Positions 4,575 to 51,900 of a stretch of DNA of 64,000 nucleotides are shown here, piece by piece. Origin of the DNA: Crambe crambe (taxonomy: Eukaryota; Porifera; Demospongiae; Poecilosclerida; Crambeidae); the NCBI GenBank assembly GCA_963924555.1, contig OZ004585.1, forward strand, positions 881,488-945,487, written 5' to 3'. The notes under the pieces were generated by a model that made no database searches, was not told the DNA's origin, and saw nothing but the letters and a program-made list of their open reading frames with translations. Numbering within the stretch: position 1 is the first letter of the stretch; each line of letters opens with the position of its first letter. Made by a program: the position numbers and the translations under genes.

Positions 4575-5541
4575 GTGTCTCTATACTCAGTGGACCTTAG
4601 GTGGAGAGCTGTTTGGCTTCATCTCGTCATTGGTAAGAGTAGAGGTGAAGTAGCTGACCTTCTCTTCATGTCTAAAAGGTCGGTTGATAGGTACATTTCT
4701 CTGTACCAATCCACTGGTAGTGTGGAGCCCAAAAAACAACGTCATGGGCCTCCATGTATTTTAAGTGATTTTGAAAAAATATCACTGATCCAGTCCCTAG
4801 TGAATAAACCAACAATGTATTTGGAAGAGCTCCAGTCAGAACTTTATGAGCTAACAGGTACTAGGGTACATAATTATGTCAACAATATGCCGAACAGTAC
4901 AGCACCTTGGGTTGACTCGAAAGAAAGTACAAAGGATTGCCCTTCAGTGTAGCGAGGAGTTACAGATTAAGTTCATGGCAGAGATCTCAATGTTTAATCC
5001 AGAAATGATCATTTGGATCGATGAAACAGGATCTGCTCGCAGGAACTCAGTGAGATCATATGGTTATAGCCTAAAAGGAATGCGAGCTGTTTCACATGAA
5101 CTAAGGGTTTCAGGTCAGAGGATCAATGCCATTGGAGTAATGTCAACAGAGGGGATAGAAGATGTGTTTATTGTAGAGGGAAATATCAGTGGAGATGTGT
5201 TTGTTAGGTTCATAAGAACAAGCCTACTACCAATACTACAACCTTTTAATGGGTTCAACAGCCACTCAGTGGTTGTAATGGACAATGCATCCATTCATCA
5301 CTATGAGGAAGTTGTAGATATCATAACTGGTGTTGGTGCAGTAGTTCGATTTCTCCCCCCATACTCGCCTGAGTTAAATCCTATTGAACATGTATTCTCC
5401 AAAGTTAAAGCTTTCTTGCGGGCAAATGATGCTGTATATTTAAGTACCCACTCACCACGTACTGTTGTATTAATGGCTTTTTGTACAATAACCAAAGATA
5501 ACTGCATAAATTACATTAGACACAGTGGATACATGTACTAG
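4575..5541 (+). pseudogene. Tc1/IS630-like DDE transposase, one frameshift
   Basis: The N-terminal frame (4575-4870) encodes paired helix-turn-helix-type DNA-binding sequence (GEVADLLFMSKRSVDRYI, then a second helical unit). The C-terminal frame (from about 4876) encodes the DDE core: WIDETG with the first Asp, VVMDNASIHH with the second, and PPYSPELNPIEHVF with the Glu. The spacing between the second Asp and the Glu is 34 residues (DD34E), typical of Tc1-like elements. The two frames overlap and are joined by a one- or two-base shift near 4870-4876 (around CATAATTATG), so this copy is probably dead. The apparent start is GTG; an acceptor-like CTATACTCAG just upstream suggests an exon before it. 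It is convergent with the SHOCT-like gene, with 28 bases between their stops. No terminal repeats were found. Confidence 0.88.
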
Positions 5542-6472: not shown

Positions 6473-6488
6473 GAAGTACTGAGGCCTA

Positions 6489-6868
6489 GAGTAAACCACC
6501 GATTTCCGGACATATCAAAATACGGACAGCTATATCTCTGGAGTGGATAGAGCTGTGATTATGTTTCTTTCACCAGATTATAAAGGAAGTCAAGTACTAC
6601 GTGTAAACGGGTTTAGAGCAGCAATGGTCATCTCACCTGGTTGCTGTACTTCAAAACGTTCACCGTCCGAATCGAGTCAAACTCCGTACAAAAAAATCTA
6701 AAGTCGGTTACCCGGCACAGAAAGTACGAACAAGTATCTACGGTCAGAGTTATATTATATTTAGATACTACAACTATCCATCTATAAAACCTCCCGACAT
6801 GTCATGTTCTAATTGCAAGCTTGCAAAAATAAACAGCTGTAAAAATTCGCACTAATTTTCGCACGCGA
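6489..6868 (+). repeat. Left terminal inverted repeat of the pogo element
   Basis: It matches the reverse complement of 10783-11163. Landmarks shared with the other arm include CGGACAGCTATATCTC, AACGTTCACCGTCCGAATCG and AACAGCTGTAAAAATTCGCA. Confidence 0.92.
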
Positions 6869-6911
6869 TATTATGACGTAATCTTATTTAAAAAATTAAT
6901 ATCAATAATAA

Positions 6912-9900
6912 TCACTGACATTCTGAACAGTTGAATACAAAAGAAGGATTCTTGGCAGTGTAGGATTGTACCCCAGCACAACTGCAATGCCACCACCTGT
7001 TACAAGCTGAGCACTCCACCCATTTATAACCTTTAGGATGACTGCATGAACGCTCCATGCACTTGGAGACACCTGTATTATCATATAATTTAGTCCAAGA
7101 TAAACATACCACACTAAACAAACCTTTCTTTGGTCTACCAGCACCGAATCCTTTACCATTTGGACCACTGGGTACACCACTGGGAGTAACGATTCCACTT
7201 GGATCAGTGATCACAGACCCTGCATGCATGTAAGGATAGATGCACATCAAATTAATTCACATCATACCTAACACACCTTTCTTTCCTCGACCACCACTGG
7301 GAGTAACGCTTCCACTTGGATCAGTGATCACAGACCCTGCATGCATGTAAGGATAGATGTACATCAAATTAATGTACACCATACCCAACACACCTTTCTT
7401 TCCTCGACCACCATTGGGAGGAACAGTCACAGACCCTGCATGCATGTAAGGATAGATGCACATCAAATTAATGCACACCATACCCAACACACCTTTCTTT
7501 CCTCGACCACCATTGGGAGGAACAGTCACAGACCCTGCATGCATGTAAGGATAGATGCACATCAAATTAATGCACACCATACCCAACACACCTTTCTTTC
7601 CTCGACCACCATTGGGAGGAACAGTCACAGACCCTGCATGCATGTAAGGATAGATACACATTAATGCACACCATACCCAACACACCTTTCTTTCCTCGAC
7701 CACCACTGGGAGTAACGATTCCACTTGGATCAGTGATCACAGACCCTGCATGCATATAAAGATAGATGCACATCAAATTAATGCACACCATACCTAACAC
7801 ACCTTTCTTTCCTCGATCACCACTGGGAGGAACAGTCACAGACCCTGCATGCATGTAAGGATAGATGCACATCAAATTAATGCACACCACACCCAACACA
7901 CCTTTTTTTCCTCGACCACCACTGGGAGTAACGATTCCACTTGGATCAGTGATCACAGACCCTGCATGCATGTAAGGATAGATGAATGTCAAATTAATGC
8001 ACACCACACCCAACACACCTTTCTTTCCTCGACCACCACTGGGAGTAACGATTCCACTTGGATCAGTGATCACAGACCCTGCATGCATATAAAGATAGAT
8101 GCACATCAAATTAATGCACACCATACCTAACACACCTTTCTTTCCTCGATCACCACTGGGAGGAACAGTCACAGACCCTGCATGCATGTAAGGATAGATA
8201 CACATTAATGCACACCATACCCAACACACCTTTTTTTCCTCGATCACCACTGGAAGTAACGATTCCACTTGGATCAGTGTTCACAGGCCCTGCATGCATG
8301 CAAGGATAGATGAATGTCAAATTAATGCACACCACACCCAACACACCTTTCTTTCCTCGACCACCACTGGGAGGAACAGTCACAGACCCTGCATGCATGT
8401 AAGGATAGATGAATGTCAAATTAATGCACACCACACCCAACACACCTTTCTTTCCTCGACCACCATTGGGAGGAACAGTCACAGACCCTGCATGCATGTA
8501 AGGATAGATACACATTAATGCACACCATACCCAACACACCTTTCTTTCCTCGATCACCACTGGGAGCAACGATTCCAGTCACAGACCCTGCATGCATGTA
8601 AGGATAGATGCACATCAAATTAATGCACACCATACCTAACACACCTTTCTTTCCTCGACCACCATTGGAAGCAATTCCACTGGGATCTGTAGCAGATTCT
8701 ACAGCTATAAACATGCAACACATGAAACCATACTTACAGTGATCTGAAGCACTTGGATGATTCAAATCAAGCCATCTGAAGTACCGCTCATCTGGGAGGT
8801 CATATCCATTTTCATAGCGTTTGTTATAAAGAGAGATCTCTTCCTCTGTAAACTTGTCTTGATCAGTCATATTGATTCCTTTTTTCTGTAATTTGGCTTT
8901 GGCCAGTCGTTTCTCTTCAGCCTTTTCTGCCCTCCTTCTAGCATTTTCTGCTCGTAAAGCTTTACGCTCTTCCTTCTTTTTTAGTTCTTCTGCTTTTGCC
9001 TTTTCTTTTTCTTCTAAAATTTGCAGGTTTTCAAGGCTAGTCAGAACTTTACCACAAGATTTAACACTTTTTGTAGGAATCTTACTTGGGGCAAGAGGAG
9101 TATTGAGAAAGCGACTTACTGATGTTGCTTTCTTAAGACGAATGACAGGTGTAACAGGGGAATAATTACTAATATTACCCATAGACAATGATCTCTGTAA
9201 TGGTGAATGATCACTTCGAGAATCAGATAGCTCAGATCCTGAACGTTGAAGTGGACTGTATAGAGGTATGTATACTAAACCTGTACGTTCAGCTAAACTT
9301 TCTGGCTGGAATTTAGGGCGCTTATCTTCTGGTACTTTGACCTGTATTCGACATCTGTCAAATGGATAAACACCAGTTGCTTGAAATCCTGCAAAAATAT
9401 TATGTGGGGTCATGGACAGCTTCCATGCTTCTGAGAAAAGGGATGAAAAATCGAACCGAGAAACTACTCTTCCAGGATTCTTAGTATAAAATTCATGGCA
9501 CACACGTTTCCAGCAGGTTTTGAGAGGGCTAAAAGCACCTTTATCTAGGGGCTGAGTAATGTGGGTGGTGTTGGGTGGCAGTGTGAAAAGAATTATTTTC
9601 TCATCAGCTGCTGCCCTGATGACTTCTGGGTTATAGTGACTCGAGTGCCCATCCATTAATAATAAAATTGGCCGTACTGACGGAATAGAGTTCAAAAAAT
9701 GGTTGTAGAACCAATACATAAAAAATTCACTGTTCATCCATCCAGTATCCGACATGCCATATAAAGTTCCTGGTATTTCCCCAGTAGTTAACTCAGGATT
9801 AAGAGTCTTGCGATCAAATAGCACAAATGGAGGGATATATGTACCATTAGCACACGTACAAGCTAACACAGTAATCTGTGACTTTGTTTCACCACTAACT

Positions 9901-10550
9901 GAGGAGACATCTTTTGAACCAGTTTTAGCAATAACCTTAACACCTTTGGGGTTCAATGGCATTCCCGTCTCATCACAATTGTATATACGCATTGGATTAT
10001 TAAAAATATTATTCTTTTTTAAGGTATCTTCCAACATATCACAATACCTTTCTAAACACTCACTATCCGTGGCCTTTGCCCTTGACAAAGAAAGAGGTAC
10101 AGCAGTACGAAGTGATAGGTCTTTGTGCCTTTGACAAAATCGTTGCCACCAGCCATGAGAAACTTTACGATCTATACCTTTATTTTCAATAATTTGTTGT
10201 ACAATTGCTAATACTTGAGAAATTGTATGGGGGTATCCAATACCTGCACATTTGATTAAAAATGCTTTAACCTCCTCTTCCTCTTGATGTGTCAAATATG
10301 ATGGTGCACCTGGTCGGCAGCCATGTTGAACTTTACCAGATAACCTATCTTGTAAAGTCGATTTAGGGACACCATACATCTCAGAAGCACGTCTGATTGA
10401 TACCCCCAACTCCACCGCTTGCATGGCCTTAGACATGCTTACACTATCCCATTGGGAATAATTGGATGGACGGGATAATTGGGAATAATTGGATAAGCTA
10501 TTATTTTTAGATACAACGATACGTTCTTTTAAAGCAGCATATTTAGCCAT
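6912..10550 (-). CDS. pogo transposase with AT-hook-like mini-exon tail and PHD-like finger
   Basis: Exon 1 (10550-8738) encodes 604 residues. It has a Psq-type HTH at about 35-75 (SIRRASEMYGVPKSTLQDRL), a CENP-B-type HTH at about 85-150, and a DDE_1 core with NCDETG, LLMDGHSSH and THITQPLDKG giving the catalytic acidic residues. A Lys/Glu-rich coiled coil (LEEKEKAKAEELKKKEE) follows. Exon 1 ends at the donor T|GTAAGTATGG in phase 1. Fifteen short exons (8686 down to 7124; 42, 48, 60 or 96 bases) follow, each adding a Gly-Arg-Gly-Lys-Lys unit such as GSVTVPPNGGRGKK. The last exon (7072-6912) encodes a Cys/His finger, KWVECSACNRWWHCSCAG, of PHD type, and ends at a stop. Every junction is phase 1, so the joined frame stays open. 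Reading without splicing also stays open from 10550 to 8421, so a truncated protein is possible. The fusion of a finger to pogo is unusual; RNA evidence would decide it. Confidence 0.82.
7124..8686 (-). repeat. Array of 15 tandem mini-exon/intron units
   Basis: The repeat unit is about 99-117 bases. On the minus strand each unit reads as acceptor CATGCATGCAG, an exon beginning GGTCTGTGA and ending CGAGGAAAGAAAG, then donor GTGTGTTGGG and a short intron. Exon lengths are 42 (GSVTVPPNGGRGKK), 48, 60 (adding ITDPSGI) or 96 bases, all multiples of three. Intron lengths are mostly 57 or 52, and 51 for the last, so introns are not held to the frame. The GRGKK/GRPKK cores resemble minimal AT-hooks. 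The first unit (8645-8686) and the last (7124-7219) are the most diverged; the inner ones are nearly identical, as expected from unequal exchange. Confidence 0.85.
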
Positions 10551-10782
10551 CTATTAGGTTAATAGATGATAACAGTAAAATAAATAGTGTAGCCAGCTCG
10601 ATATAGTACACTGACGAGGATACTTAGATTTTTTACACCTAGGAAGATAAGTACTCCAGCCCCCCGAATAACGACTTACCTTTACTGACTCGATCTAAAC
10701 TTTCAGATAAGCTAGACACAGATTAGCACTTTAGCAGAATCAACCACATGTACAGTGGTTCAATCACGTGGGTATGCATTGC

Positions 10783-11163
10783 GCGTGCGCTGAAAATTAG
10801 TGCGAATTTTTACAGCTGTTTATTTTTGCAAGCTTGCAATTAGAACGTGACATGTCGGGAGGTTTTATAGATGGATAGTTGTAGTATCTAAATATAATAT
10901 AACTCTGACTGTAGATGCTTGTTCGTACTTTCTGTGCCGGGTAACCGACTTTAGATTTTTTTGTACAGAGTTTGACTCGATTCGGACGGTGAACGTTTTG
11001 AAGTACAGCAACCCGGTGAGTTGACCATTGCTGTTCTAAACCCGTTTACACGTAGTACTCGACTTCCTTTATCATCTGGCGAGAGAAACATGATCACAGC
11101 TCTATCCACTCCGGAGATATAGCTGTCCGTATTTTGATGTGTCCGGAAATCGGTGGCTTACTC
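10783..11163 (-). repeat. Right terminal inverted repeat of the pogo element
   Basis: Inverted copy of 6489-6868. The transposase start codon (10550) lies about 230 bases inside it, so the promoter is probably in or next to this arm. Confidence 0.92.
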
Positions 11164-11820
11164 TAGTAGACATGGCTGGCTATCAACTATCTAGTCTCCC
11201 CAACTATTTTTGCCCGCCTTCACGGTCTATATTGAACACGTGGTTCAATTCACTAGGATCACTGTTTACTTAGTTACAACCCACACAATGCACTGTCCCA
11301 TACTAGATTTGAGACAACCAACTTGCAAACTGCTGTACATGGATCTGGAGACAGTTGCAACAAGTTCTATCAACCATTGAAGAAGATTACATAAATTCAT
11401 AGCATGGTTAATTCCACTCCTCTTTGCCCAGAACCTTGGGGGTTACTTCTCTGGCAGTTCCAGACAATGGTTTGTTTTTTCACACACCTGGCTCAAGACT
11501 AATTTACACACTACAAGGTCCTGTATGCTTAAGTATAGTCTCACAGTTATGTTGGTGGCTATACTAAATTCTGAGGCCTACTGTGATCATGTCAAACATG
11601 ACAGAATAACAAGTGCTCCTCTGCCAACAGGAAACAAGGTATATGCTAATCATTCTACCCAAATGTAGCCAAGTGAACTAGCTACCTGCAGCAGAAAAAT
11701 TTTGCTTTGGTGCTAAACACTGTCACTTCTTTCTAGAATTACACTGTGACCAAAATTGGCCTGCTGTTTGGAACTATCCTACCTTAGGTACATTATAGTT
11801 AGCTAGCTGGTAATTCACAC

Positions 11821-15090: not shown

Positions 15091-17859
15091 TCAAGAGGAA
15101 ATGAATTGAATCAAATCAAATCCAATAATACAATATTGACTTAGTTGGTTCCCTACCTCTTCAAACCAAATGGTATGTTTAGGCTCCAAGTCCACTGGTT
15201 CTATCTGTTGAGGGTCTTGTAGACACTCCATACAGGCAGCAGATTCTTCTGCCAGCACACAGAGATGATCTGTACTAGAGTGGACAGGGCACTTGAAGGC
15301 AAACTTGTAATCCATCATGAATTTGTAGTTCAAACGTGAGGTGACCGTCTTCAGGGTGGACTGAACTACCCCACGAACACGACTGCAGAGCATTTTAGTA
15401 TGACTTACTGGTTTCCTATGTTGTAGTCGTGTGATGGCAACTTCGAGATACAAGGGACGTGAGATGAGTGTGATTTTGTCATAGTCCTTCCCCACGTGGA
15501 ACTCAACTTTATTCTTTCGAATAGTATTTTCAACCAGTCTCCAGTCCTTTGAATGCCGAGAAGCAATGTTTGCAATCATGTAGGAAAATATGCCCAGAGG
15601 CACATAGCCACAATCATAGCGTAGCAGTAAGGGGGCTGGGTCTTCATTGGAGGTCTCGACTGTCAATTCACTGGCTCTGGCACTCTTGAGGATACTGGGC
15701 ATGAAGTACACCTCCTCTTGAGTGGAACTAGCTCCTGTAGGAGATGTGGGAGTGAAGCGTACCAATATGTTGAGGTATTCAAGAAGCTCCACCAATTTCT
15801 CCAGTGGAATGAGGGCATCAGCACAACTTGATGTAGCACTCTTCAAATCTTTAAGTGAGAACTGTGCTTTCTCTTTGAATCTTTCTGCCACTCTCTTCCC
15901 AACTTTCTTAAAAGTGAAAGTCTTCTTGACAAGGTTTGTTACGCTATCAAACAGGACTTGCACATCACAGATGACTGTATCTTTGAATGAGTCTAACTCG
16001 GGATAATACGAAATGAGGCCCACACGATGGTGCAGGAACCACAATGCTTCTTGCAGCTCACTGGGACTGATTCTGAGCTTCCCTCCCAGCTCTTCACATC
16101 TCACTAAACTCATCACACGCAAATTCAATTTCCGTACATAGAGACTCAACATTAACCAGGCAGCTGGAATGGTTATTTTACTGAAGCTCCTTTTGATTAT
16201 TCTCTCCAGGACTTTTCTGATCTCCTCTATCTCTTCTTGGCCACCATCATAATTATTGACTGCCAACATCAGCTGGTCCTCTGAGACAAACTCGATAATC
16301 TTGTTCTTATAAAAACTTGTATTTTTGATTCTCTTCTGAAGGAGTCCATCTTTCTCCTTGAACTCTTCGTCATTCACCTTGTCTCGATGTGTTCCCACAA
16401 AGACAACTTTTGACTTGAAGTGACCCGAGAACTCAGTAGTCTTGCGACACTTTACTGGGGGTCCATCACGACTATCCAGTGAACGCTCACTAAAGTATTC
16501 AATGCTGGAGAGAGATTGAAATAAAACTTCTTCCATGGTCAACGTAGAATCTTCTGGGTCAGTAGACACACCTTCTTCATTGGTATAATACACTTTAAAG
16601 AGGCTATCCAGTTGGTCGGTCAGTCGGCTGAAGAGAAGGTAAAGGGAAGGACCCATGATGAGGGCAGCATGCATTTCCAAAAATTCTGGATAACCACCAG
16701 TGTCAGTATTTATCAAAAGGATTGTGTCGTCCAATAGGTACTTTACTTTGCCCCACTCTTCATTACGCATGGCTTCTCGGAAAAGAGAGAGAATCTCTTC
16801 CATGTCCTCTACCCTCTGCTTTCTCGTATCAACATCAGATACAGAAGACTGCGAAGCTGTATCTCTGCCAACTGCCAATGTTGTGCCACTCTTGACAGTT
16901 TCATAGAATAACTGGCTATATATACCAGCTTCCTCGAACACATCCTTAAGTACCGACCATCTCCGGGACACAATTGTTCCAACATCAGAATGGACATTCC
17001 TGATGACAACATGGCCTCCCTCCTCCACCACTCCTGTGCTTGGCTGTTCCTTCTCCATGGCCATCAAGATATTCAAGATCTCTCCCATCAAACGACGTCG
17101 ACTGCACGTCTTCCCTGATCGAGGAAGGCCAGAGTAAACCATCCTTATTATGTCGATATCCACACAGATTTTCTCTGCAATAATCTTAGAACAAGCATTC
17201 TCATGTTGCAGCATCTCATTGGAAACTGAGTCATAAAGATTGAAAAGGAAATTGTATGGATGTTATTGTACTTGAGATGCCACATTCCAGTATAACTCAC
17301 CAAATCCAGTCAGAGGTTCATTTTGAGTAGAGACAGGACTAGAGGAGGTATCTATTATAGAGGAGAAATAATAATGATACTTTAACACATATCAGAAGTC
17401 CTGGATGATCAACTCTATGAGATGGGAGGACATGCACTAGGAATCCCAGATAATATAATAAACAAAAACAAACAAACAAACAAACAAACAAACAAGGGTC
17501 CATGTTGGGGAGGCAGCAAACCTAAGTTAATACTCATATAGGTATTCAATCTATTTTCCCATTGAACCTAATGCCCCTCCCCATACAATCAATGTACTCC
17601 CAACTAGTCTCTCTGTGATTATCACTGTTGGAACCACTGCAGGTCAGGATAGTGAGAGAGAGGAGATAAGGCTCACATGTAATGATGCTACAGTTCCAGA
17701 AACCATCACAGACCACAAGACTCACCTTTAAGGTAGTTAATCCACAGCTTTGTCCACTTTACTTGTAACCAAACCATTCTTCTATTTGCCAAGTAACTAT
17801 CAAGCTCCTGGATGCCTTTGTTGGGCTTATTATTTCCACTATAGTAACTACTGCATAGT
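15091..17859 (-). CDS. ROC-COR (ROCO-type) GTPase gene, partial
   Basis: Three exons join in phase 1. 17859-17726 encodes GNNKPNKGIQELDSYLANRR and ends KLWINYLK. 17351-17301 encodes DTSSSPVSTQNEPLTGFG. 17225-15157 is the GTPase exon of nearly 690 residues. From the first Met (17214), the P-loop GLPRSGKT is at residues 29-36, the G3 motif DTGGYPEF lies near 170, and G4 is GTHRDK. A COR domain starts at PAAWLMLSLYVRK and includes YFMPSILKS and YVPLGIFSYMI. The last exon either splices at GAAGAG|GTAGGG (15157) or reads on to a stop at 15091. The N-terminus and any C-terminal partner are not resolved. The first exon lies inside the left arm of the palindrome. Family members are multidomain GTPase scaffolds; the substrate is unknown. 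Confidence 0.8.
17460..17494. repeat. AAAC microsatellite
   Basis: About eight CAAA units inside an intron of the ROC-COR gene. Confidence 0.85.
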
Positions 17860-19223
17860 CTGCAAAAAGCTGTCAGATTTTTTTCCTTCCATACACTATT
17901 ATGTCATAACTATAAATATAAGTTAGACAACGAGACCAAGGGATATAAGTTATTTAGACATAGATAACATGTAGTGGTTATGAGTAGAGGTGCCAGGGTT
18001 GGCTACTCATTACTTTCCATTAGTGTTTGTCAAGCTAACTAGCAGTTATCAGTAAGTTGCTGCATGGGGTTGCTATGCATGATCTAAATAAGTTAGACAA
18101 CTCAACTAATTAAATGAGATATAAGTTATTTATAGCACCCTTGCTGTGCTCAGGATGCTACAGCCTCGGGCATTTGGATATCTAGGCACTACATGTTATC
18201 TAAGTGAACGGTGTACCAGAAAGTAACCACTTCTTGTTTGGCTAGCTGTTCAGCACAAGTTGCTAGGCAACTAATGTAAAAAAATGCACTGTCCTAAGAG
18301 CAGACTGACCAGTGATATAAGTGATTTATAACACTCGGTTTTTCTACTGAGCTATGATCTAAACAGCTAGCCGAACAAGAAGTGGTTAGTTTTTTGTACA
18401 CCGTTCACTTAGATAAAATGTAGTCCTTAGATAAGCTAAGATAAGCTAAGATAGTGTATATGCAGGAACCAACTCAAATTTGAGTGAATCAAGAAGGACT
18501 GAGGCTAGTCCTCTATCAAGGAAGATATCCAGGCAGGAACGAAGGAGGATGGAACAAAAGTTCAAAGGTAGCTGCATACTAATAGGACCACTTCTTGTTC
18601 GGCTAGCTGTTTAGATCATAGCTCAGTAGAAAAACCGAGTGTTATAAATCACTTATATCACTGGTCAGTCTGCTCTTAGGACAGTGCATTTTTTTACATT
18701 AGTTGCCTAGCAACTTGTGCTGAACAGCTAGCCAAACAAGAAGTGGTTAATTTCTGGTACACCGTTCACTTAGATAACATGTAGTGCCTAGATATCCAAA
18801 TGCCCGAGGCTGTAGCATCCCGAGCACAGCAAGGGTGCTATAAATAACTTATATCTCATTTAATTAGTTGAGTTGTCTAGATCATGCATAGCAACCCCAT
18901 GCAGAAACTTACTGATAGCTGCTAGTTAGCTTGACAAACACTAATGGAAAGTAATGAGTAGCCAACCCTGGCACCTCTACTCATAACCACTACATGTTAT
19001 CTATGTCTAAATAACTTATATCCCTTGGTCTCGTTGTCTAACTTATATTTATAGTTATGACATAATAGTGTATGGAAGAAAAAAAATCTGACAGCTTTTT
19101 TGCAGACTATGTGGTAGTTACTATAGTGGAAATAATAAGCCCAACAAAGGCATCCAGGAGCTTGATAGTTACTTGGCAAATAGAAGAATGGTTACAGGTA
19201 AAGTGGACAAAGCTGTGGATTAA
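17737..19223. repeat. Large palindrome (inverted duplication) with an exon copy in each arm
   Basis: The left arm (17737-18386) and right arm (18587-19223) are near-perfect reverse complements of about 640 bases, around a unique 200-base loop that holds an AGCTAAGATA repeat. The left arm contains the 5' exon of the ROC-COR gene (17859-17726). The right arm contains an antisense copy (about 19100-19200, plus strand) that has lost TTTGG before its Gln codon. Within each arm there are further shorter repeats (GTACACCGTTCACTTAGATA). The arms carry no transposase or clear target duplication, so this may be a genomic inverted duplication rather than a transposon. Confidence 0.88.
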
Positions 19224-19676: not shown

Positions 19677-22600
19677 CTGAAGAAGGAATGGCATTGCTTG
19701 CATCAGTTTCTATTGAAAATAAATAAATAATTAAAAAATTGCTAGCATTAAGTTTTCGGCTTACCAAAATTCAATACTTGATGTATATCATCCCATTCTG
19801 GATTAGCATTGTTCATGAACCACCACTCCACAACTTTTCTCAAGGCAACTTGATTATCCTTTTGGCAAGAAACAGTAATGACATCCGTTACAGAACTAGG
19901 CACACCTAGTAAAGATGCAACCCTAATCCACCGATCCAATAACTTAAGTAACATGTTAACGGCATTAGCAATTGTCAAGGGTTCTTGAACCTTCCCATCA
20001 CCTGTACATTAATTGAAAAGAACTTCAAACCTGTATTCATATTATACATCTTAGGTAAATTAGGTAACTGGATTTGAGAAAAGGTACAATTTCATTCAAA
20101 ATGTTAAAAGTCATTAGCTGGTATTATCCTTACCTAACCACTTCATATGGCTAGATCCTGGAAAGATGCTGTTATTTTTTTCACATTTCATGGATGTATC
20201 ACTGTGGTAAGAACATGTGTGTTTTTCATCTATTTTTCCACATCTGCAGTCGAATGCAATATTGAAATTGAAATTATGGCCATTGATGATGTTTATCTTC
20301 TCCAAACATTGCAGAATAACTGAAGCAATCTGGTGATAATTAGTTGGCTTTTTCTGATCATCTGACTTCACATATACTTCGACATGTGGTGACTCAAATG
20401 CAACAGTAACAAGGCATTGAAATTCTTCAGCTCTTAACATTGCACAGTTCTTATACAAGCACATGGGATTACCAGATTGATCTCTTGGTATAATCCATGA
20501 TCGATTCAATAGACATGATATCAGCATTGAAATGAACTCATTACCTGTAGAAGGACACTTTATAATCATAGGAATAAGATTCAAATCGATAGAATTTTCA
20601 CAAAATGTCTTTCTGTCCATTTTATTCAAAGGTTGAAGCAAGGAAGGCATGATGTATCTGGCATCACCATCAAAAGGAGCCATTATCATCAACTTGGTGA
20701 ATAAAACTATAAAGTCCTTGTCAGATATATATTTCAATTCATTAGTATAGACTCCAATCTCATTGAGCAAGTCTACTCTGGTGACAACTGATGACTGCCA
20801 GCCATCTAAATGTTTATTATTATCATAGAGAGAGGAAAATATCTTTGAAAAAATTGTAATTCCTGAAAAAACAATATCAGGTAGAGCATCTTTGAAGTAA
20901 AGTAACATATTGTGTTCCGACAGATATTGAAGTGCTACTTCGACTGTTGGCCGGTCCATATTCAAAAGTTTGCCAATTTTCATACAGTGTCCTTCAACAC
21001 TTAAAATAACCAAATTTGAAGAGGTAATGCATTCTTTTAATTTGAAACCAAATACATGCCATGCAAATGGGAATTTCTTGGAATTGGTTACTGACATCGC
21101 ATGGTCAATAACTCTGCAACCAGAGTCATGATCTTGTCTTTCTGGTGTTTTATAATTGATGGGAAAAATCTGGTTTTCACTACTTGAATTGCCTAGATTT
21201 TCACGTAGGAGAGCAATTTTTTCTTGAATGTTAACATCCTCTTTGATATATGTTCCAATAATGAGCAATTTAGAGCTTGGTGTTGCAGTTTGTAACAAAT
21301 CATCCCATTCAGTCTGATGCAACTCCTTAGATAAATCAGTAACAAAAGCATAGAAAGTCACATTCCTGATAAAGACTTTCAAAAGTTCACCGAGTTTGAA
21401 AAAGTTAGATCCACAATTAATCACATGGAGTAATTCCATTTTCCCTTTAGTTTGGTACTGGGACATGCTATCTATTGTATTTACAATGCTAGCAGCTTCA
21501 AAAAATTGATCAAGATGTTTTGATTGTTCTCTCTTTGCTGGAATAGTTTGTTTTTCATGTTCTTCAGATTTGTGTGCATCCATACTTTTTTCCGGAGCAG
21601 TTTGCTTTTCATGTTCTTCAGATTTGTGTGTATCCACACTCTTTTCCGGAGCAGTTTGTTTTTCATATTCTTTAGATTTGTGTGCATCCACACTCTTTTC
21701 CAGAGCAGTTTGCTCTTCATGTTCTTCAGATTTGTGTGCATCCACACTCTTTTCCAGAGCAGTTTGCTCTTCATGTTCTTCAGATTTGTGTGCATCCACA
21801 CTCTTAGCTGAAGTGGTTTGCTTTTTATTCACTTTTGGTGATGGTGATGCTTGCAAGTCTTGTTGGTCTTGTGAAGAATGTTTAGGCTCTACCTCAGACT
21901 GACTCTCTTCAGGAACTATTGAAAATGCTATGATTTCCTTGTGATCATTGGTTTCCATCTTTTTAAACATAGCACAATCATGATCAGCAGGTCGATAATA
22001 AATCTCATGCTCAACTGATGATATGGCTTTTGGAGTTGTGGGCACAGGTTCTTGAAGTGCTATGTGTTTAGTGCTCGTAACTTCAGAATCAGAGACTCCA
22101 AAGAAGATCACCGATGCAATCCTTAAATCAAGAGAACCTTTGTCCATCGCTTTATCAAAAATATCAGCAGGTTCACCTATGTAAGGTTAACAAAACAATA
22201 AAACCAATGAAACTTGAATGGGTCATTAGTGACTTACCTCTAGCTTTCTCTGAAGCTTTTTGTTCTTGAAACCATGCTAATTCAGACTTGTTGAGTTCAC
22301 TTACTTGCTGATTGTTACATTCACATGTGTTAGATTCCAACATTAACTTCTTTACGACATAAAAATGCTTTACATTTGATGCTGAGCAACTGCTGTTGTT
22401 GCAAGCTAATGTTAAATCAAATTCTCTTTCTTCAAGCCAACGTGGTACTATTCGCTGAAGCTGCACATTTAATGTGGATAAAATATGGTAGTAGATATCT
22501 TCACTCAAGATGGCATCATTATATGAAACACAGTCGACTCGAATAAATTGGGAAAATTCAGTAAGTATCACACAGATACATTCATTCACTATAAATTTAA

Positions 22601-25600
22601 ACTGATTTCGGCAATATTGAATACAAGTTTCACTATTATCAAGTGGTATTCTCCATCTTGTATTGCCAATTATAACTCCAGCTAATGCAGTTAACAGTCT
22701 TGTAAACACACCGGTAGCAATGTATTCAGACTCTGGAACAATGTACAAGGGGGATACATCACTGTCTAAATGCTCTAAAATGGCTCCATGATCCTTTTTG
22801 GGTACTGGTAATATCGAAGGAACGAAATAACAAATTACGTGTCCAGGAAGATATATTTTGACACTCAGATGATGCTCTTCTAGAAATTCCATAAACCAGC
22901 AGTCATCAATTTTAGATGGTTTCTTCTTGAGAAGGGATGTATAAAAGCTCATAGGCATGATTCCCTTCTCAACTAAACTCTTCCATTCCGGTTTAAGAAG
23001 TCTAGGATCATAGCAAAACAAAGCTGCAAACACTTTTAGCAAAGCCTTCGGATCGATTATTACGAAGTTTTTCATGTTCTTTTTTTCAGATAGATGATAC
23101 CACATGATCACACCAAGCTCATGAAAGTACATTAATGCAGCTTTAGGTTCCTCGACTTTGTACTCTTTGCCAATTGAAATAGCTTCATCTAAGGGGATGA
23201 TACCAATACTGATACAATCAGTGTAGCACTTTTTTTGTAAGGCTAGTCTGAATAGTTGCCATGAGCGAGGAATTTCAATATCTGAAGATTCATTGGCACA
23301 AGTTGATATAGTGTTTCTAAGTGATTCTATTCCTGAATCATCGATTTCCCTTCCTGATCTTGTATTATCAACTTTGTGTATATAAGACTCTCCATGTGGA
23401 TAAAGTGATATGCTACTCTTGTTTTCATCGGCAAACCGACTGATATTGTGATCAATGCCTTGGAGAATTTCATTTGAAGCAGTTGCTTTATCTTTGTATG
23501 TGCCAATAACAACAGCTGCAGTAGAAGCCTTCTGGGAATCGTTTGATCTCAACTGTGGAGGTAAGTTTTCTTCTTTTCTTTGTGTGTTGTATGAAAAAGC
23601 TTGGACAAATGACAGATTACGGTGCAATATATCTCTATTAGTGAAAGGAGATGCAGTTGGTTCAAGGAAAGACTTGCAGGGTCGGATTTCTGGCTTCTCA
23701 TCAAATTTTTCTAAATCACTCAAACGGAAAACTATTCCATACAAACACTTCAATCGAGCAAAGCAAGGCAGTAGATCTTGGAATATCGGTTGACCTCCAG
23801 TGTCCCACATGGTGAGAAAGATTTTACTTTGACAGTCTCTGGGTAGATTCAGTAATGGCTTGAAGGCACTTCCAGCAATAGTTGTCAATGATTCACGATA
23901 GAGAAATTCAGGTTCCATAACTATTGTGGGTCGTTCGTTGTCATCTATAGGCTCGTTTTTCAGATGCTTTCGGAGACTTGTCTTTCCAACACCAGTGTGG
24001 CCTATTAGAATGACATGAATTTGAATTTCATCTTTAACAAGATCACCACCTGTAGAAATCTTTATTAAGCCAATCCAAGTCTTTTCTGTTTCTACAATAG
24101 ATATAATAGAGGAATAATTATTAAGTTTGATGGATGGATTTAATACACTTTGGTGGTTGAAGTCATATAGTTGCTACAGTATAACTGTATTACTATATAG
24201 CTAAGTGCTGGTAAAAATTGATCATAACATAAATATGAAAAGGCTACTTACCTAGTAAATGCTGAAGTTCATCAGCTAATTCTGAATAAGTATGAGGCCT
24301 GAACTGTGTGTCCTTTGAAAGCCATTTTTGTTCAATCACGTTCTTCAGAATATGTTGGCCAGGAATTTCAACATGGGAAGTATTACCACCATGAGACAAA
24401 ATATGAAGTATGACTTCCTTCATCCACAGCAAGTCATCTTGTGCTAGTGATTCAGAAATGCTAGCGCTATATTGATTGCTGGGTATTTCATCAGTGAACG
24501 AGTCACCATAAACAGGGATGAGTTTTGCTTTGTATTCAGCATCATCCTCTTGTATTAATATGTGGTCAGTGGACACCTTTACCTTATGGTTTAGCTTTTC
24601 AAATCTCTTTGCACCACTTGCAACATTCAAAAGGAGAGATATCTGAAGTAGATCGATATCTGATTCATCATAATTAGTGGGAAAGGTAATTTCTTCAAGA
24701 AACTTTAACTTCTCAATGATTACAACAGGATACTTTTGCAATTCTCCCTCTTCTGGTAGATAATACAACCCTTTAATAAATGGTACTTCTTTGTGATCAC
24801 GAATCAAAGCTTCCAGATACTTGATATACTTCATATCGATCTCGGATTCCTCAGAAAATTGATTTGGATAAACAAGAGCCATACACTCTTCGCCCTGATG
24901 ATGAGCAGATTTTATAATCTTCCCTTGTTTCTCATGTGCTGGAGATGATTCTATTGGAGGTAACGAGACATTTGTGAGTGTGTTCCAATGCTTTAGTACC
25001 ACTTCATGGTCTTTAAAACAGTAAGATTTTACAGAAGTCTCCTCTTTAAAAGCTGTTATTTTCTTTGGATAGAGAGGTTGACACAGTAACATTTTCAAGA
25101 AAGAATCAGGAATTAGAACAAGAACTTTAACACTTCCTCCTTCAACTCCAGCTAGTAATATTTTAGTGTCATCAATTCCTATATATTTGCTCAGTTCTAG
25201 TCTGAAACTATGCAGATCACTAATCATGTATTCATCTTGATTTTTGTTAATAATAAAAATAGCACTAAAATGATTAGTAAGAACTGACTGACACATCTCG
25301 CTACAATTAAATACTCTGCACTTTGCATATTCTTCAAAGCTCTTGATGTAATTATCTGCATTTCTTTTGTCTCGTTCGGATCCAAACTTTGGAATAAGTT
25401 TAGTTATAAGAATGTCGAAATTCATGAAAGACTGATGTTCATAAATCTTTTCCTTGAGCTTCTCCACATTGTTACCTGCCTTTATTTCATCCCTAGTCTT
25501 AGGACTGATTGAAAATATAGTTGAGATCATGCAACAACGACGGGAAAAATTCTCATCATTAGTTGTTTTTGATAGAGTTTCACAAAAATTCTCAAGCAAT

Positions 25601-45974: not shown

Positions 45975-48900
45975 CTATAAATCAGCTCCAGCCAGAGCTG
46001 CTTCTTCCAACTGATTTGCAATGTCGTTCAGTTGCATATCATCCAGTAACTTGAGGAGACCTTCCCATGTAATAGGGTACTGCATAAACAAGAATACAGT
46101 CATAATTAATTCTCAGTCCCAGTAGAACTTCAGTGGAACCTCAAATGAAGGAAACTCTGGAAAAGGACAAGAACCACAGCATAGAAACTTGCTACAGCTC
46201 AAGTTCCATTATTGCAACTAACTACATATCTAGCTATACTTCTTTATAAATCACTCACTTTTTTTGAGTTTCTTTGCATCCATACTTGAATCACATTATG
46301 CAAGCAGCGACTCTGATCCTTGAGGTACATTTCCCATCCGTCCAGTTGTGCTCCACTGATATCGAGAAGCTGTCCTATTTCTTTCCACATGGGAGACATT
46401 TGCTGCTGAAGTCTTAACACTTGAGTCTGACCAGACTTATCTGTCCACCTAAGTAATATCATCCCTCGCATAGATATTATCTTTCCTATAGAAACAGACA
46501 GTTATTACCATTCACACAAAATGACTTTTGTTATGTTCCACTTTTTTTGATAGATAGAAAAAAAGAAAGAAGAACCTTGAAAGGATTGGGATTGTAGTTA
46601 ATAGGAACCAGTCACTCTAATTGGCAAGCGAGCGAAGCCCCACACTAATTGGTCAAAATGGAAAATTGAGATATTTATATGTACACGTACGTCAATTAAA
46701 ATGCGCATGCGCTTACACATGAAATAGCTACTAAGCAACGTTGGTCTAATAACTTTTATGCAATAATTTTTGTTAAACTTGAAGTTGAAACACTATTGCA
46801 CTTCGGAGGGCTCCGGCTCGATCAACCTGTCCTTCGCATTGTCCTAACAATAGCTCCTTTCCAGCTGTTGGTAATAATCGTCAAACTCACAAACTCAGTC
46901 ATATAGGGCCCCGGCCCCACCCACCAATCAGTCCTTTCAACAGCTCACGCGGGAAAAAATGGCTCAACGCAGTGAGAGAGAGAATCCTTCGGGATCGATG
47001 CTAGATGAGCTAAAAAGCTGTCCTCAGGTAATGCAGGAGTTAGCTAAGGCCCTCTTGCCATCGTTGAAAGAGTTAGCTGGGGGAAATCAGAGTAGGAATC
47101 AGGGTAGGTCGGGCCACGTGCCACATGGCCTATCTCATATCAACGAAGCCTACCTTGACCCAGATTCAGGCAATGAAGCCTGCTCCGATGTAGATTACCA
47201 GGACCTAGGCAATGAAGCCTACTATGGTCTAGTACCTAGCACTGGCAAAGAAGCCAGGACAATTCAAGGCAATGAAGCCAATAGTGGTTATGGCAATGAA
47301 GCCAGGAACGGTCATGGCAATGAAGCCAGGTACAATCTTGGCAATGAAGCCAGAAACAATATTGGCAATGAAGCCAGGAACACCCTCAGCAATGAAGCCA
47401 GGAACTACCTCGGCAAGGAAACAAGGAACGACAGGGGCAGAGGTCATAATGCTGATGATGCTACACCCAGTTCTGCACAAGCAGGTCAGAACCAGTGGGG
47501 TTGGGCAGGATACGCCGATCCAGGATGGACAGGTGCAGATGCATCAGCAGCCTATGGAAGTCAGGTGCGACCTCCATACCCACCACACACAGGATATTGG
47601 CAATTCCCACCATCCTATGGGCAGAACCAAGGGATGTTTCCAGGTTTTCCCCCATGGCCAGTAGACCCTCGGGCTTATCAACCTCCCATAGACCCAGTGA
47701 GAACAACATCACCGAGGGAGAACAGGAAGAGATCTAGGCCAGAGGAGGACCCTTCTACCTCATCAGCAACAGAGGTATCGGAGGACGATATTGATCCATT
47801 TATCTCTGGAAGGGAAAGGAGAGAGCTGCTTAGCAGCTCTGACGAGAGCGACGAAGGAGAGGAGGAGCGACAACCACCAGCAAAGAGAAGTTTCACTCCA
47901 ACAGAAGAAACTAGAAAGTTCCTGCGGTCAGTTGCTCTTAAACCATTGAAGAATGAGAAGCGAAAGGATACTATGAACAAGTATCCTATCCCTGCCTGTG
48001 ACCCAATCCATCCACCAAAGCTGGATGAATCGGTGTCATGCCTAGTTCCCAAGACAGCAAAGACGTATGACAGCTTCTTGAGCAAGCTACAGCGGTTCGC
48101 ATTAGATGCAGCAGGCCCACTGGTGTGGATGCTCAATGAGAGGAGCCAAGGAAGAGAAGTGGATGTGGACTTGGTTTGTAAGTCTACTCTTGCTCTCCTA
48201 GGCAATGCATCAGCACATTTCAATGTTGAGAGAAGAAGATCACTTCTAAAGCACCTCAACAAGGACCTGAGGCCGCTAGCAGAGGCGGAGTTTCCGGAGA
48301 GAGGAGCATATTTGTTTGGCGATGACTTTGGCAAGAGAGCCAAGAAGATGTCAGACAATGTCTCAGCCCTGAAGGGGCTAACCAAGAAAAATACAGACTA
48401 CAACCATCGTTTTTCAGGGAGCGGCGACCCCAACAGGAGGTTCAACCTTCCCAAGCCCCAGGGTCGCCGTCCAAATTGGGGCGTCACACCTCCCATCAGG
48501 AGATCAGTCTTTGGACGCCTGGATCCAGCTCCAAAGATCTTCCACAAGTTCCGGAAGCCAAGCAAACAACAAAGAGAACAGAACAAGTAGAAAAGAACCC
48601 TTTACCAAAAACATTAACTCAAGAAATTGTAAAAGAATTAAGCTTAATCAATGTATTCCCCCAAGCAACACAGGCTTGCAGAATATCCCACCATCTCCCC
48701 AATTGGCAGGAGATAACTTCAGACCCATGGGTACTGGAGGTTGTGAGGGGTTACAAACTAGAGTTGCTTGGAGTGCCGGTACAACATTCCATACCTATTA
48801 CCAAGTCGGGAGGAACAACAGCTTCCATTATCTCAGACGAGGTGGAATCCCTCCTGGAGAAAGGAGCAGTGCATCAAGTGGAGAGGTCGACAGAGGGTTT

Positions 48901-51900
48901 CTATTCAAGAATCTTTGTAGTACCAAAGAAAGGAGGAAAGTTCAGACCAGTCATCAACCTCAAGCCCTTGAATCGCTTCATGGCATACCAGCACTTCAAG
49001 ATGGAAGGTATTCAGGTGGTAAGGGAATTATTGAGGGAAGGAGACTGGATGACCCGCATAGACCTCAAAGATGCATATTTCGCAGTCCCCATTCACCAGA
49101 AGCATCGCAAGTTTCTGAGGTTTATATGGAGGGACAAGGCTTACGAGTTCAGATGCCTCCCCTTTGGGCTCTCCACAGCCCCAAGAGTCTTCACAAAGCT
49201 TCTTCGTCCGGTTGTAAGTTACCTCCGACAGAAGGGAGTCCGTTGCGTGATATACCTGGACGACATACTGTTAATGGAGCAGTCCAAAACAGTACTCCAG
49301 AAGCATACAGCAATGGTAGTGACTTTGCTGCAGGGTTTAGGTTTCCTGATCAACTTTCCAAAGTCCCATTTAGAGCCCACCCAGATACTGGAGTTCCTGG
49401 GCTTCACAATAGACTCGATCAGGAGGGAGCTGAGACTCCCCAAGGAGAAGTTGGAGGAAATCAGGAAGCAAGCGAGGAAGTTACTGAAGCAGGACAAAGT
49501 TTCAGCAAGAATCTTAGCCCAGTTCCTGGGCAAATTATCAGCAGCGATACTGGCAGTGCACCCAGCCCCACTACACTACAGAAGCTTGCAGAGGCTCAAG
49601 CACAGAGCCTTGCGGGTAAGGGGCTACGATGGGGACATCAAGATGTCTCTGGAAGCCAGAGAGGACCTAGCTTGGTGGTCGGACAACCTACCCAAATGGA
49701 ATGGGAAGAAGATGCTTCAACTCAACCCAGAGGTTACCATAGAAACGGATGCATCATGCATGGGATGGGGTGCTTTCTCCCAGGGAGAGATGACAGGAGG
49801 ATGCTGGAGTCTGGAGGAGAGAAAGCAACATATCAATTGGCTAGAGCTCCTAGCAGTATTTTATGCCCTGAAGGCATTCCTGAAGCAGACACATGGGCAG
49901 TCAGTCCAGATATTGTCGGACAATATGACCGTTGTAGCATATGTGAACAAGATGGGGGGGACAAGATCGGATCCTCTTACGGCCCTCACAAAGGAAATAT
50001 GGAATTGGTGCATAGATCGTTTGATAGAGATCAAGGCTCAACACCTACCAGGGAAGCAGAACGTCACAGCGGACTTTCTATCCAGACATCTGAGGGACCG
50101 AACAGATTGGATGTTGAATCCGGAATTGTTCGCAGTGATAGACGAGTGGTGGGGACCAATACAAACGGACCTCTTTGCTTCACGCTTTTCAGCACAGCTG
50201 GAACATTTCTTCAGCTGGCGGGCAGACCCAGAAGCGGCAGCAACGGATGCATTCACGCAGGTTTGGGCAGGGAGGATGAGCTTTGCGCATCCACCTTGGT
50301 GCCTGATCACCAGGGTATTGCAGAAGGTGCAGGCAGAAAGGGCGACTATAGTCCTGATCACCCCCCTGTGGACATCACAGCCCTGGTTCCCAGTAATTCT
50401 GGATTCACTGATCGATCTGCCACTGCTACTCCCAGTCGGCAGGAATGTACTCATCCCATCACCGAATTGCGACTGCCCAGTAGCAATGAACAATCAATTG
50501 CAGTTGGCCGCATGGAAGGTCTCAGGAGACGTTTCCAGTCAGATTCAATTCCAGAAAAGGCTATCGAACTCATCATGTGTTCGTGGAGGGAGAAAACAAA
50601 TGCAAACTACAATTCGGCATGGAGGAAATGGGAAGAATGGTGTAGGATCAGAAATACCTGTGCCTTTTCGGCAGATATCCAATCTATATTGGCATTCTTA
50701 GCTGACGAGTTCGAGAAGGGTAAGCAATATCGCTCTCTCAACTGTTATAGATCAGCATTATCTTCAGCCCACTTACCAATTGAAGGCTTTCAGGTGGGAC
50801 AGCACCCTTTAGTCTCAAGACTATTAAAAGGTGCATTTAACCTCCGCCCTCCACAGCCGAGGTACTCCCAAACATGGAATGTAGCACAGCTACTAGCTCA
50901 TGTTAGGGGCTGGGGAGATAATGAGAAATTGTCCCTGAGACAGATCACCAAGAAGGTGGCAATCTTGCTAGCCCTAGTGCTGGCTCACAGAGCTTCAGAC
51001 CTGGTGAGACTCTCCCTTAGAGGAAGTAAACACACTCAAGATGGGATAGTCTTGCAATGTGTTGGCTTGGCAAAACAAGCAAGACAGGGGAATTTTAGAA
51101 CACAAGAAGTGTTCATAGCAGGATTTCGAGAGAAATCCTTGTGCCCTGTGACATGCCTCCAAGTGTACGAGCAAGTTACAAGTGGCCACAGGAAGTCAGA
51201 GAGGCTGTTCCTGGCAACAGTCTCTCCATATAGACCTGTAACATCCTCATCAATAGCGAGGTGGATCAAGGACACCTTGAGAGGAGCAGGATTGGGAGAG
51301 TATAATGCTCATTCTTCAAGGGGAGCAGCAGCTACAGCTGCAGCAATGTCGGGAGTCTCAATTCAGGAGATCTTGAACAGAGCTGGTTGGTCCAAGGAGG
51401 ACACTTTTTCCAGGTTCTATTACCGACCTAAAGAGGCAGAGAAAAGTGCCAGGAGTTTTGGAGAAGGAGTTTTGGGCTACGAACATGCGAAGGACAGGTT
51501 GATCGAGCCGGAGCCCTCCGAAGTGCAATCCCAGAATGGCTAAGGCTGCTTGCAGCTGAGTGCTATTCTGGATTGTATGAGGAGGGTGGAGGCGAGATCA
51601 ACCTGTCCTGCCCACCCAAACCCTCCCTACATTGTTCATGACTCTATATTTATGATTTTTTCTTTCAATAATGTTAACTGTTTCAAGGACTGATTGGTGG
51701 GTGGGGCCGGGGCCCTATATGACTGAGTTTGTGAGTTTGACGATTATTACCAACAGCTGGAAAGGAGCTATTGTTAGGACAATGCGAAGGACAGGTTGAT
51801 CTCGCCTCCACCCTCCTCATACAATCCAGAATAGCACTCAGCTGCAAGCAGCCTTAGCCATTCTGGGATTGTAGCGAGTATTATGGAACCCAGAGAACCA

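Follow-up and report, generated by a model that had tools for sequence, protein, structure and literature searches.

A row of tandem phase-1 mini-exons as the probable C-terminal part of a pogo-type transposase gene in the sponge Crambe crambe

A tandem array at positions 7124-8704, on the minus strand of the 64,000-nucleotide stretch of Crambe crambe DNA analysed here (the window; C8:881488-945487 in a genome of 143 Mb and 119 contigs), probably forms the C-terminal part of the transposase gene of an intact pogo-type transposon, in which a first exon, a row of phase-1 mini-exons and a PHD-finger exon would be joined by splicing. The DNA displays the anatomy of this gene, its frame, its splice signals, a unit order that differs in another copy, and a layout common to related families; from the sequence we infer that the RNA is spliced as modelled. 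In the mechanism we propose, a long exon 1 coding for the DNA-binding and DDE domains would be spliced onto the row of phase-1 mini-exons, the row would code for a basic, glycine-rich tail, and the PHD-finger exon would be joined on after it. The row would have been enlarged by tandem duplication of an exon plus its intron, the last mini-exon and the intron that follows it being the probable starting point.

The array is enclosed in a mobile element of 4.7 kb, an intact pogo-type DNA transposon at 6486-11167 on the minus strand. The terminal inverted repeats (TIRs) of the element are about 385 bp long; the one at the gene's 3' end (6486-6867) is 95.3% identical to the inverted sequence of the one at the 5' end (10782-11166), and TA is outermost in each. 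The same is true of both outer ends in four copies, namely the window copy and those designated C9a, C9b and C10. C9a (C9:2426654-2431335) is 99.9% identical to the window copy over 4682 bp, and the identity is bounded by the element ends. It is inserted at a TA within the terminal repeat of C9b, a copy of the same family in the opposite orientation, and so splits that repeat (G000:C9:2426374-2435779; L009 and L010). C10 is a fragment with four units, and a fragment in C3 has the PHD exon and inverted-repeat sequence, with an array match absent. Transposase matches number at least 99 in the genome. The exon 1 product carries the pogo-type Pfam domains HTH_psq, HTH_Tnp_Tc5 and DDE_1, with E values of 3.3e-19 for PF03184, 2.3e-08 for PF05225 and 6.5e-05 for PF03221, all of them above the curated cut-offs. 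From their motif context, Asp 193, Asp 300 and Asp 336 are the presumptive catalytic aspartates; the 35 residues between the last two fall within the DD29-56D range given for pogo elements in the text of a survey (PMC7386202). The same text gives TIRs of 392-856 bp for some insect elements only, and of 40 bp or less for most families (PMC7386202). With its HTH and DDE_1 domains, D-D-D triad, TIRs and TA ends, the element is thus the pogo transposase that the original prediction, made from the letters alone, had taken it to be. That prediction did not mention the PHD-finger exon, the long TIRs or the residue-level pattern described below.

Several other features of the window may be recorded here. 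Adjoining the element, at 4575-5541 on the plus strand, is a DDE_3 (Tc1/IS630-like) transposase that is apparently split over two frames. A short ORF at 811-1122 on the minus strand has, near its end, the sequence ILAGDVETNPGP, which resembles a 2A peptide. At 17737-19223 is an inverted repeat whose arms, each about 650 bp long, are 96% identical and spaced by 200 bp, and nearly the same 54-bp repeat is found within long ORFs at 21545-21805 and 62648-62885, 41 kb apart. ORFs at 22173-23918 and 54684-56468 have Roc/COR domain matches; a 1010-residue ORF at 48511-51543 (plus strand), adjoining overlapping long ORFs, matches tyrosine recombinases (Phage_integrase).

How is the gene laid out? Exon 1 (8738-10550; all features of the gene are on the minus strand) is marked by its open reading frame, its Pfam matches and the D-D-D triad, and codes for the transposase domains and a K/E-rich stretch. 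Intron 1 (8705-8737) has a good donor and an in-frame acceptor. At 33 nt it would be below the length expected for an animal intron, and for that reason the start of mini-exon 1 (60 nt, 8645-8704) is uncertain; read-through or skipping would likewise keep the frame. Scores of the array in Tandem Repeats Finder go up to 1635, and along it 14 donors alternate without exception with 14 acceptors. The thirteen internal mini-exons so delimited are number 2 (48 nt, 8540-8587), 3 (42 nt, 8446-8487), 4 (42 nt, 8347-8388), 5 (60 nt, 8230-8289), 6 (42 nt, 8136-8177), 7 (60 nt, 8019-8078), 8 (60 nt, 7902-7961), 9 (42 nt, 7803-7844), 10 (60 nt, 7686-7745), 11 (42 nt, 7592-7633), 12 (42 nt, 7493-7534), 13 (42 nt, 7394-7435) and 14 (60 nt, 7277-7336), and their introns are of 57 or 52 nt. 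The intron after mini-exon 14 (7220-7276) has an in-frame stop. Mini-exon 15 (96 nt, 7124-7219) is the sole unit with a GRPKK core; the last intron (51 nt, 7073-7123; 55 nt in C10) has no in-frame stop, and the last coding exon (161 nt, 6912-7072), entered in phase 1, holds the PHD finger and the stop codon. The predicted array of 15 mini-exons, placed at 7124-8686, is therefore present with somewhat wider limits, each internal unit having its own acceptor, exon and donor.

All junctions of the 15 mini-exons are in phase 1, and the exon length classes of 36, 42, 48, 60 and 96 nt are all multiples of three, as predicted. When spliced, the window copy would comprise 17 exons coding for 923 residues with no internal stop, and C9b, whose exon 1 is longer by an in-frame 57 nt, would code for 948, also without a stop. 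Joined end to end, the 13 internal mini-exons have no stop in the 214 codons of the phase-1 frame, and 13 and 9 stops in the other two frames. A single nonsense codon, in mini-exon 8, interrupts the near-identical copy C9a. Because each unit begins and ends in phase 1, the gain, loss or skipping of units keeps the PHD finger in frame. One might ask, then, whether the units are alternatively spliced, so that a single element gives rise to a pool of transposases with varied tail length. All units are symmetric, any skipping would be in frame, and the small symmetrical exons of schistosome micro-exon genes are spliced alternatively, according to the part of the literature available to us (PMC4350168). 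Nothing here indicates skipping, however, and we regard such a pool as possible but rather unlikely; it would in any case supplement the spliced-gene reading, not compete with it. A further consequence of the uniform phase is that exon 1 joined straight to the PHD exon is also in frame, so that frame alone is no proof that the units are included.

Evidence on splice sites comes from a dynamic programme that finds the best chain of exons while blind to frame, with general metazoan values as weights. In the window copy the search regained every one of the 13 internal mini-exons, whichever of the three penalties was applied, and differed from the model at the outer borders of mini-exons 1 and 15; in C9b, at the one penalty tried, it gave a different length for one unit. 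All 14 array donors have the same score, one that is reached by 0.56% of the 3413 plus-strand GT sites in the window, and the score of the array acceptors is reached by 3.3% of 4449 AG sites. Since the units are copies of each other, these scores amount to nearly one observation rather than fourteen. GT and AG are kept in all 45 of the unit introns compared.

The lengths of the introns say less. The original prediction held that introns of 57, 52 and 51 nt are not bound to multiples of three, and this is so for the 52-nt class but not for the other two: the lengths 57, 51 and 33 nt are divisible by three, and so are 13 of the 16 introns of the window copy and 9 of the 16 of C9b. Within the window copy only 52-nt introns break the frame, three there against seven in C9b. 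An in-frame stop is found in one intron of each of these copies, so that 15 of the 16 window-copy introns are stop-free, and intron length is accordingly weak evidence for coding in the window copy. The length differences between introns, 52 versus 57 and 51 versus 55 nt, are not multiples of three. Counted by eye, the length-change events that separate exon classes number four, each a multiple of three, and none of the three that separate introns is one (P = 0.029, one-sided Fisher test), a modest signal that depends on how the events are reconstructed.

Expected coding constraint was likewise found in part. Among 21 copies of the 42-nt mini-exon and 17 of the 60-nt mini-exon, C9a being counted beside the near-identical window copy, there are 12 variable sites, of which 1 is synonymous, 10 are missense and 1 is nonsense. 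So few synonymous changes have a probability of 0.18 at an assumed neutral proportion of 24%; the pattern fits what would be expected without selection, and purifying selection on the residues is undetected. Nor are the exons of the window family significantly less variable than the introns (12/102 versus 21/109 sites, P = 0.18). In the transposase exon, by contrast, the window copy and C9b differ over 604 codons by 5 synonymous and 3 non-synonymous changes, a synonymous excess with P = 0.027 at an assumed neutral 25%. Thus the frame and the splice sites of the mini-exons look constrained, and their residues do not.

Two related families make the spliced-exon reading much stronger, as they have the same layout. 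In fam2 (C12, C16 and C5), with a transposase 54-55% identical to that of the window family, six mini-exons of 42, 57, 39, 36, 39 and 48 nt, all multiples of three and in phase 1, with GTGAGT donors, lie between transposase and PHD exon; all seven introns have an in-frame stop and none is a multiple of three. By eye, the donor of the first intron of the window copy is at a place like that of fam2. In fam3 (C17, C1, C5, C13, C9, C6 and C16; transposase 48% identical to the window family's) there are eight internal exons of 144, 102, 24, 114, 96, 54, 84 and 96 nt, again all multiples of three and in phase 1, and eight introns, all with stops, of which three are multiples of three. Both families have diverged tandem units in their DNA, 72-78% identical over 182-312 bp.

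The exon borders in fam2 and fam3 were picked by eye with the frame known, and frame-blind and shuffle searches served as controls. The best phase-1, open chain of exons in multiples of three scores 64.0 in fam2, against a shuffle maximum of 23.7, and 45.5 in fam3, against 24.8. No dinucleotide shuffle reached the real in-frame score (0/196 for fam2 and 0/192 for fam3, after 4 and 8 of 200 shuffles that gave no chain were dropped), and the cost of imposing the frame is smaller in the real sequences than in any shuffle. This control allowed GT donors only, while the by-eye donors of two fam3 exons, the one before exon B and exon E, are GC. When GC donors are allowed, 5 of the 7 exons in the frame-blind chain of fam2 are multiples of three at every penalty, and the three penalties give 9 of 13, 8 of 10 and 7 of 8 in fam3; with GT donors only, the count is 5 of 7 in either family, against a fraction of 0.33-0.35 in shuffles. 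By chance, 5 of 7 has P = 0.045 and 8 of 10 has P = 0.003, although the frame-blind chains agree with the by-eye model at only four exons in fam2 and two to three in fam3.

Indels among copies tell a similar story. In five copies of fam2, all eight indels are in introns (333 exon versus 694 intron bases compared, P = 0.043); the four other copies cover about 1025 bases of the tail, mini-exon m6 and the PHD exon being outside the comparison. In fam3, seven of eight tails were compared, with C6 represented by its tail only and C16 (L021 and L047, with a gap of 233 bases between the loci) left out. Two fam3 exon indels, +9 in copy C1a and -9 in C5, are in frame. The frame-breaking ones are +4, -10 and -8 in C9 and -2 in the PHD exon of C5, and in these two copies the transposase ORF is broken (446 residues in C9 and 496 in C5, versus 614 in C17, both C1 copies and C13). 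In C6 the transposase match is in two pieces with a stop in each, and there is no frame-breaking exon indel. The internal exons remain stop-free multiples of three in the five fam2 copies, over the part covered, and in all fam3 copies except C9. Frame-breaking changes as common in exons as in introns would have spoken against coding, and among copies with an intact transposase no frame-breaking exon indel was seen in either family. Variable sites are also rarer in exons (17/890) than in introns (26/596) of fam3 (P = 0.007), with no significant difference in fam2 (6/333 versus 7/694, P = 0.37).

Other relatives are built differently. L020, with a transposase 48% identical (it lies with L061 at C12:6217800-6224378), has a tail that is open over 828 codons within one exon and made of 27-29-residue repeats with 16 RGRP motifs, which are AT-hook-like cores, where the other families have mini-exons; we saw no PHD finger in this tail, and the repeat-tail piece has no Pfam AT-hook match. 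In the more distant L030, L032 and L041, the transposase, the K/E-rich stretch and a PHD-like end are in one ORF. A quick tree, with arbitrary rooting, joins the window family and fam2 with support of 0.98, and sets these and fam3 apart from L020 and the rest with 0.97.

Might the array nevertheless be a non-coding minisatellite within one large intron, with exon 1 spliced straight to either the PHD exon or the 96-nt one? The in-frame exon 1-PHD transcript, the uniform phase-1 junctions, the undetectable selection on unit residues and the nonsense codon in a unit of one young copy would all be compatible with this. We think it improbable, as it leaves unexplained the restriction of unit lengths to multiples of three with phase 1 the sole open frame, the invariable GT and AG of the unit introns compared, the upkeep of unlike phase-1 mini-exons in the same position in two related families, and the pattern of indels, which are confined to introns in fam2 and, within exons of fam3, preserve the frame where the transposase is intact. 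A still poorer candidate, which we reject, is an unspliced coding minisatellite with the 57-nt 'introns' translated within a repeat of 33 or 39 residues: 57 is a multiple of three, most window-copy introns are open and L020 has such a repeat at this place, but the frame is lost in the 52-nt introns and closed by a stop in one of 57 nt, the unspliced reading ends short of the PHD exon, after 709 codons in the window copy and 728 in C9b, and stops are found in 15 of the 15 introns examined in fam2 and fam3.

If the array is a row of spliced exons, how has it changed? In an alignment of units between the window copy and C9b, which by construction permits whole-unit gaps only, 8 of the 13 internal units pair with equal exon and intron lengths, and five are unpaired on each side. 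The window copy has two pairs of identical internal units, 10 with 11 and 5 with 8. The last intron is similar to a unit intron, with 9 of 1000 shuffles scoring as high, and this points to the last mini-exon and its intron as the source of the array. The original prediction had the length of the tail change by unequal exchange of whole exon-intron units. The differing order of units in the window copy and C9b agrees with exchange; the number of units is the same, 15, in each of the three full copies. The element is in effect a natural experiment on the growth of repeats whose unit is an exon plus its intron.

No blastn match at 1e-3 links the tail DNA of any two of the window family, fam2 and fam3, so the expansions look separate. 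A broader proposal, which we put forward tentatively and hold to be somewhat doubtful, is that this pogo lineage has an evolvable, splice-built linker between its catalytic core and a histone-reading PHD finger. Mini-exons would have expanded repeatedly in separate families, once as repeats within one exon, and unequal exchange, perhaps with exon skipping as well, would tune tail length, with the frame never lost.

What might the tail do? As coded by mini-exons 1-15 it would have 266 residues, 66 of them Gly and 46 Lys or Arg, with a net charge of +34. The core of the AT-hook is GRP. The motif is RGKK in 14 units and GRPKK in only 1 of 15, so that a tail of strict AT-hooks is not supported for the array, and of the AT-hook-like Gly-Arg-Lys tail originally envisaged it is the basic, Gly-rich character that holds. 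We picture the tail as a flexible, non-specific tether to DNA or chromatin, leading from the catalytic core to the histone-reading PHD finger; the length of such a tether presumably matters more than its sequence, and the residue data suggest that tail length and charge matter more than the residues themselves.

In the last exon, seven of the eight Cys4-His-Cys3 ligand columns of a PHD finger, and a Trp two residues before the His, are invariant in six of six aligned elements; the window copy also has the second Cys, which is shifted in some relatives. The window protein alone scores 14.2 bits with Pfam PHD, below the curated cut-off of 24. A profile of the last exon of six elements matches 26 PDB sequences at E values up to 0.001, with KDM5B and KDM5A at the top; by name, these 26 are either PHD fingers or chromatin proteins with such a finger. 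The window PHD exon alone has KDM5B as its best match (E 3.7e-5), and its single-sequence AlphaFold2 model has a mean pLDDT of 52. The best profile matches of the element's last exon and its relatives are thus the PHD fingers of KDM5A and KDM5B (PDB 2kgg and 2ma5), from which the element differs in that its exon alone is under the Pfam cut-off and its histone binding is a prediction. Together, the basic tail and the PHD finger would make a possible chromatin-targeting device in pogo elements.

Compactness is the expectation for transposons, and one or a few exons suffice for many transposases. Here is a mobile gene with about 15 tiny exons and an intron content about equal to that of its exons, and two related families have the same design in unlike sequences. 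With the pogo/Tigger-type transposons of the IS630-Tc1-mariner group the element shares HTH_psq, HTH_Tnp_Tc5 and DDE_1 domains, the D-D-D triad, TIRs and TA ends; it differs in its TIRs of about 385 bp, its multi-exon tail, its tandem mini-exons and its PHD finger. The words 'intron' and 'PHD' have no match in the main text of two pogo surveys (PMC7386202, PMC7325037). A mini-exon array in a transposon did not appear in titles or abstract openings among the matches listed by our literature search, whose range took in few subscription papers and no bioRxiv preprints, nor in the accessible portions of papers on intronic minisatellites of earthworm metallothionein (PMC12783039) and on transposon-derived factors (PMC10027918).

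The closest parallels are in host genes. The schistosome micro-exon genes also have very small symmetrical exons that can be skipped in frame, but they are host genes for secreted proteins, with alternative splicing reported, and a tandem DNA repeat of exon plus intron is not described in the text available for them (PMC4350168). The LRR genes of Tetrahymena have tandem arrays of 90-bp exons of one intron phase for which, in the portion of the report available, the authors propose unequal crossing over (PMC6564038). Those arrays belong to host genes of a ciliate, are in phase 2, have a fixed unit of 90 bp and code for an LRR domain (PMC6564038), whereas the array described here is in phase 1, has exons of several lengths, codes for a basic Gly-rich tail and lies within a transposon. 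Exon arrays are therefore already known in host genes, and it is the setting in a transposase gene that appears to be new.
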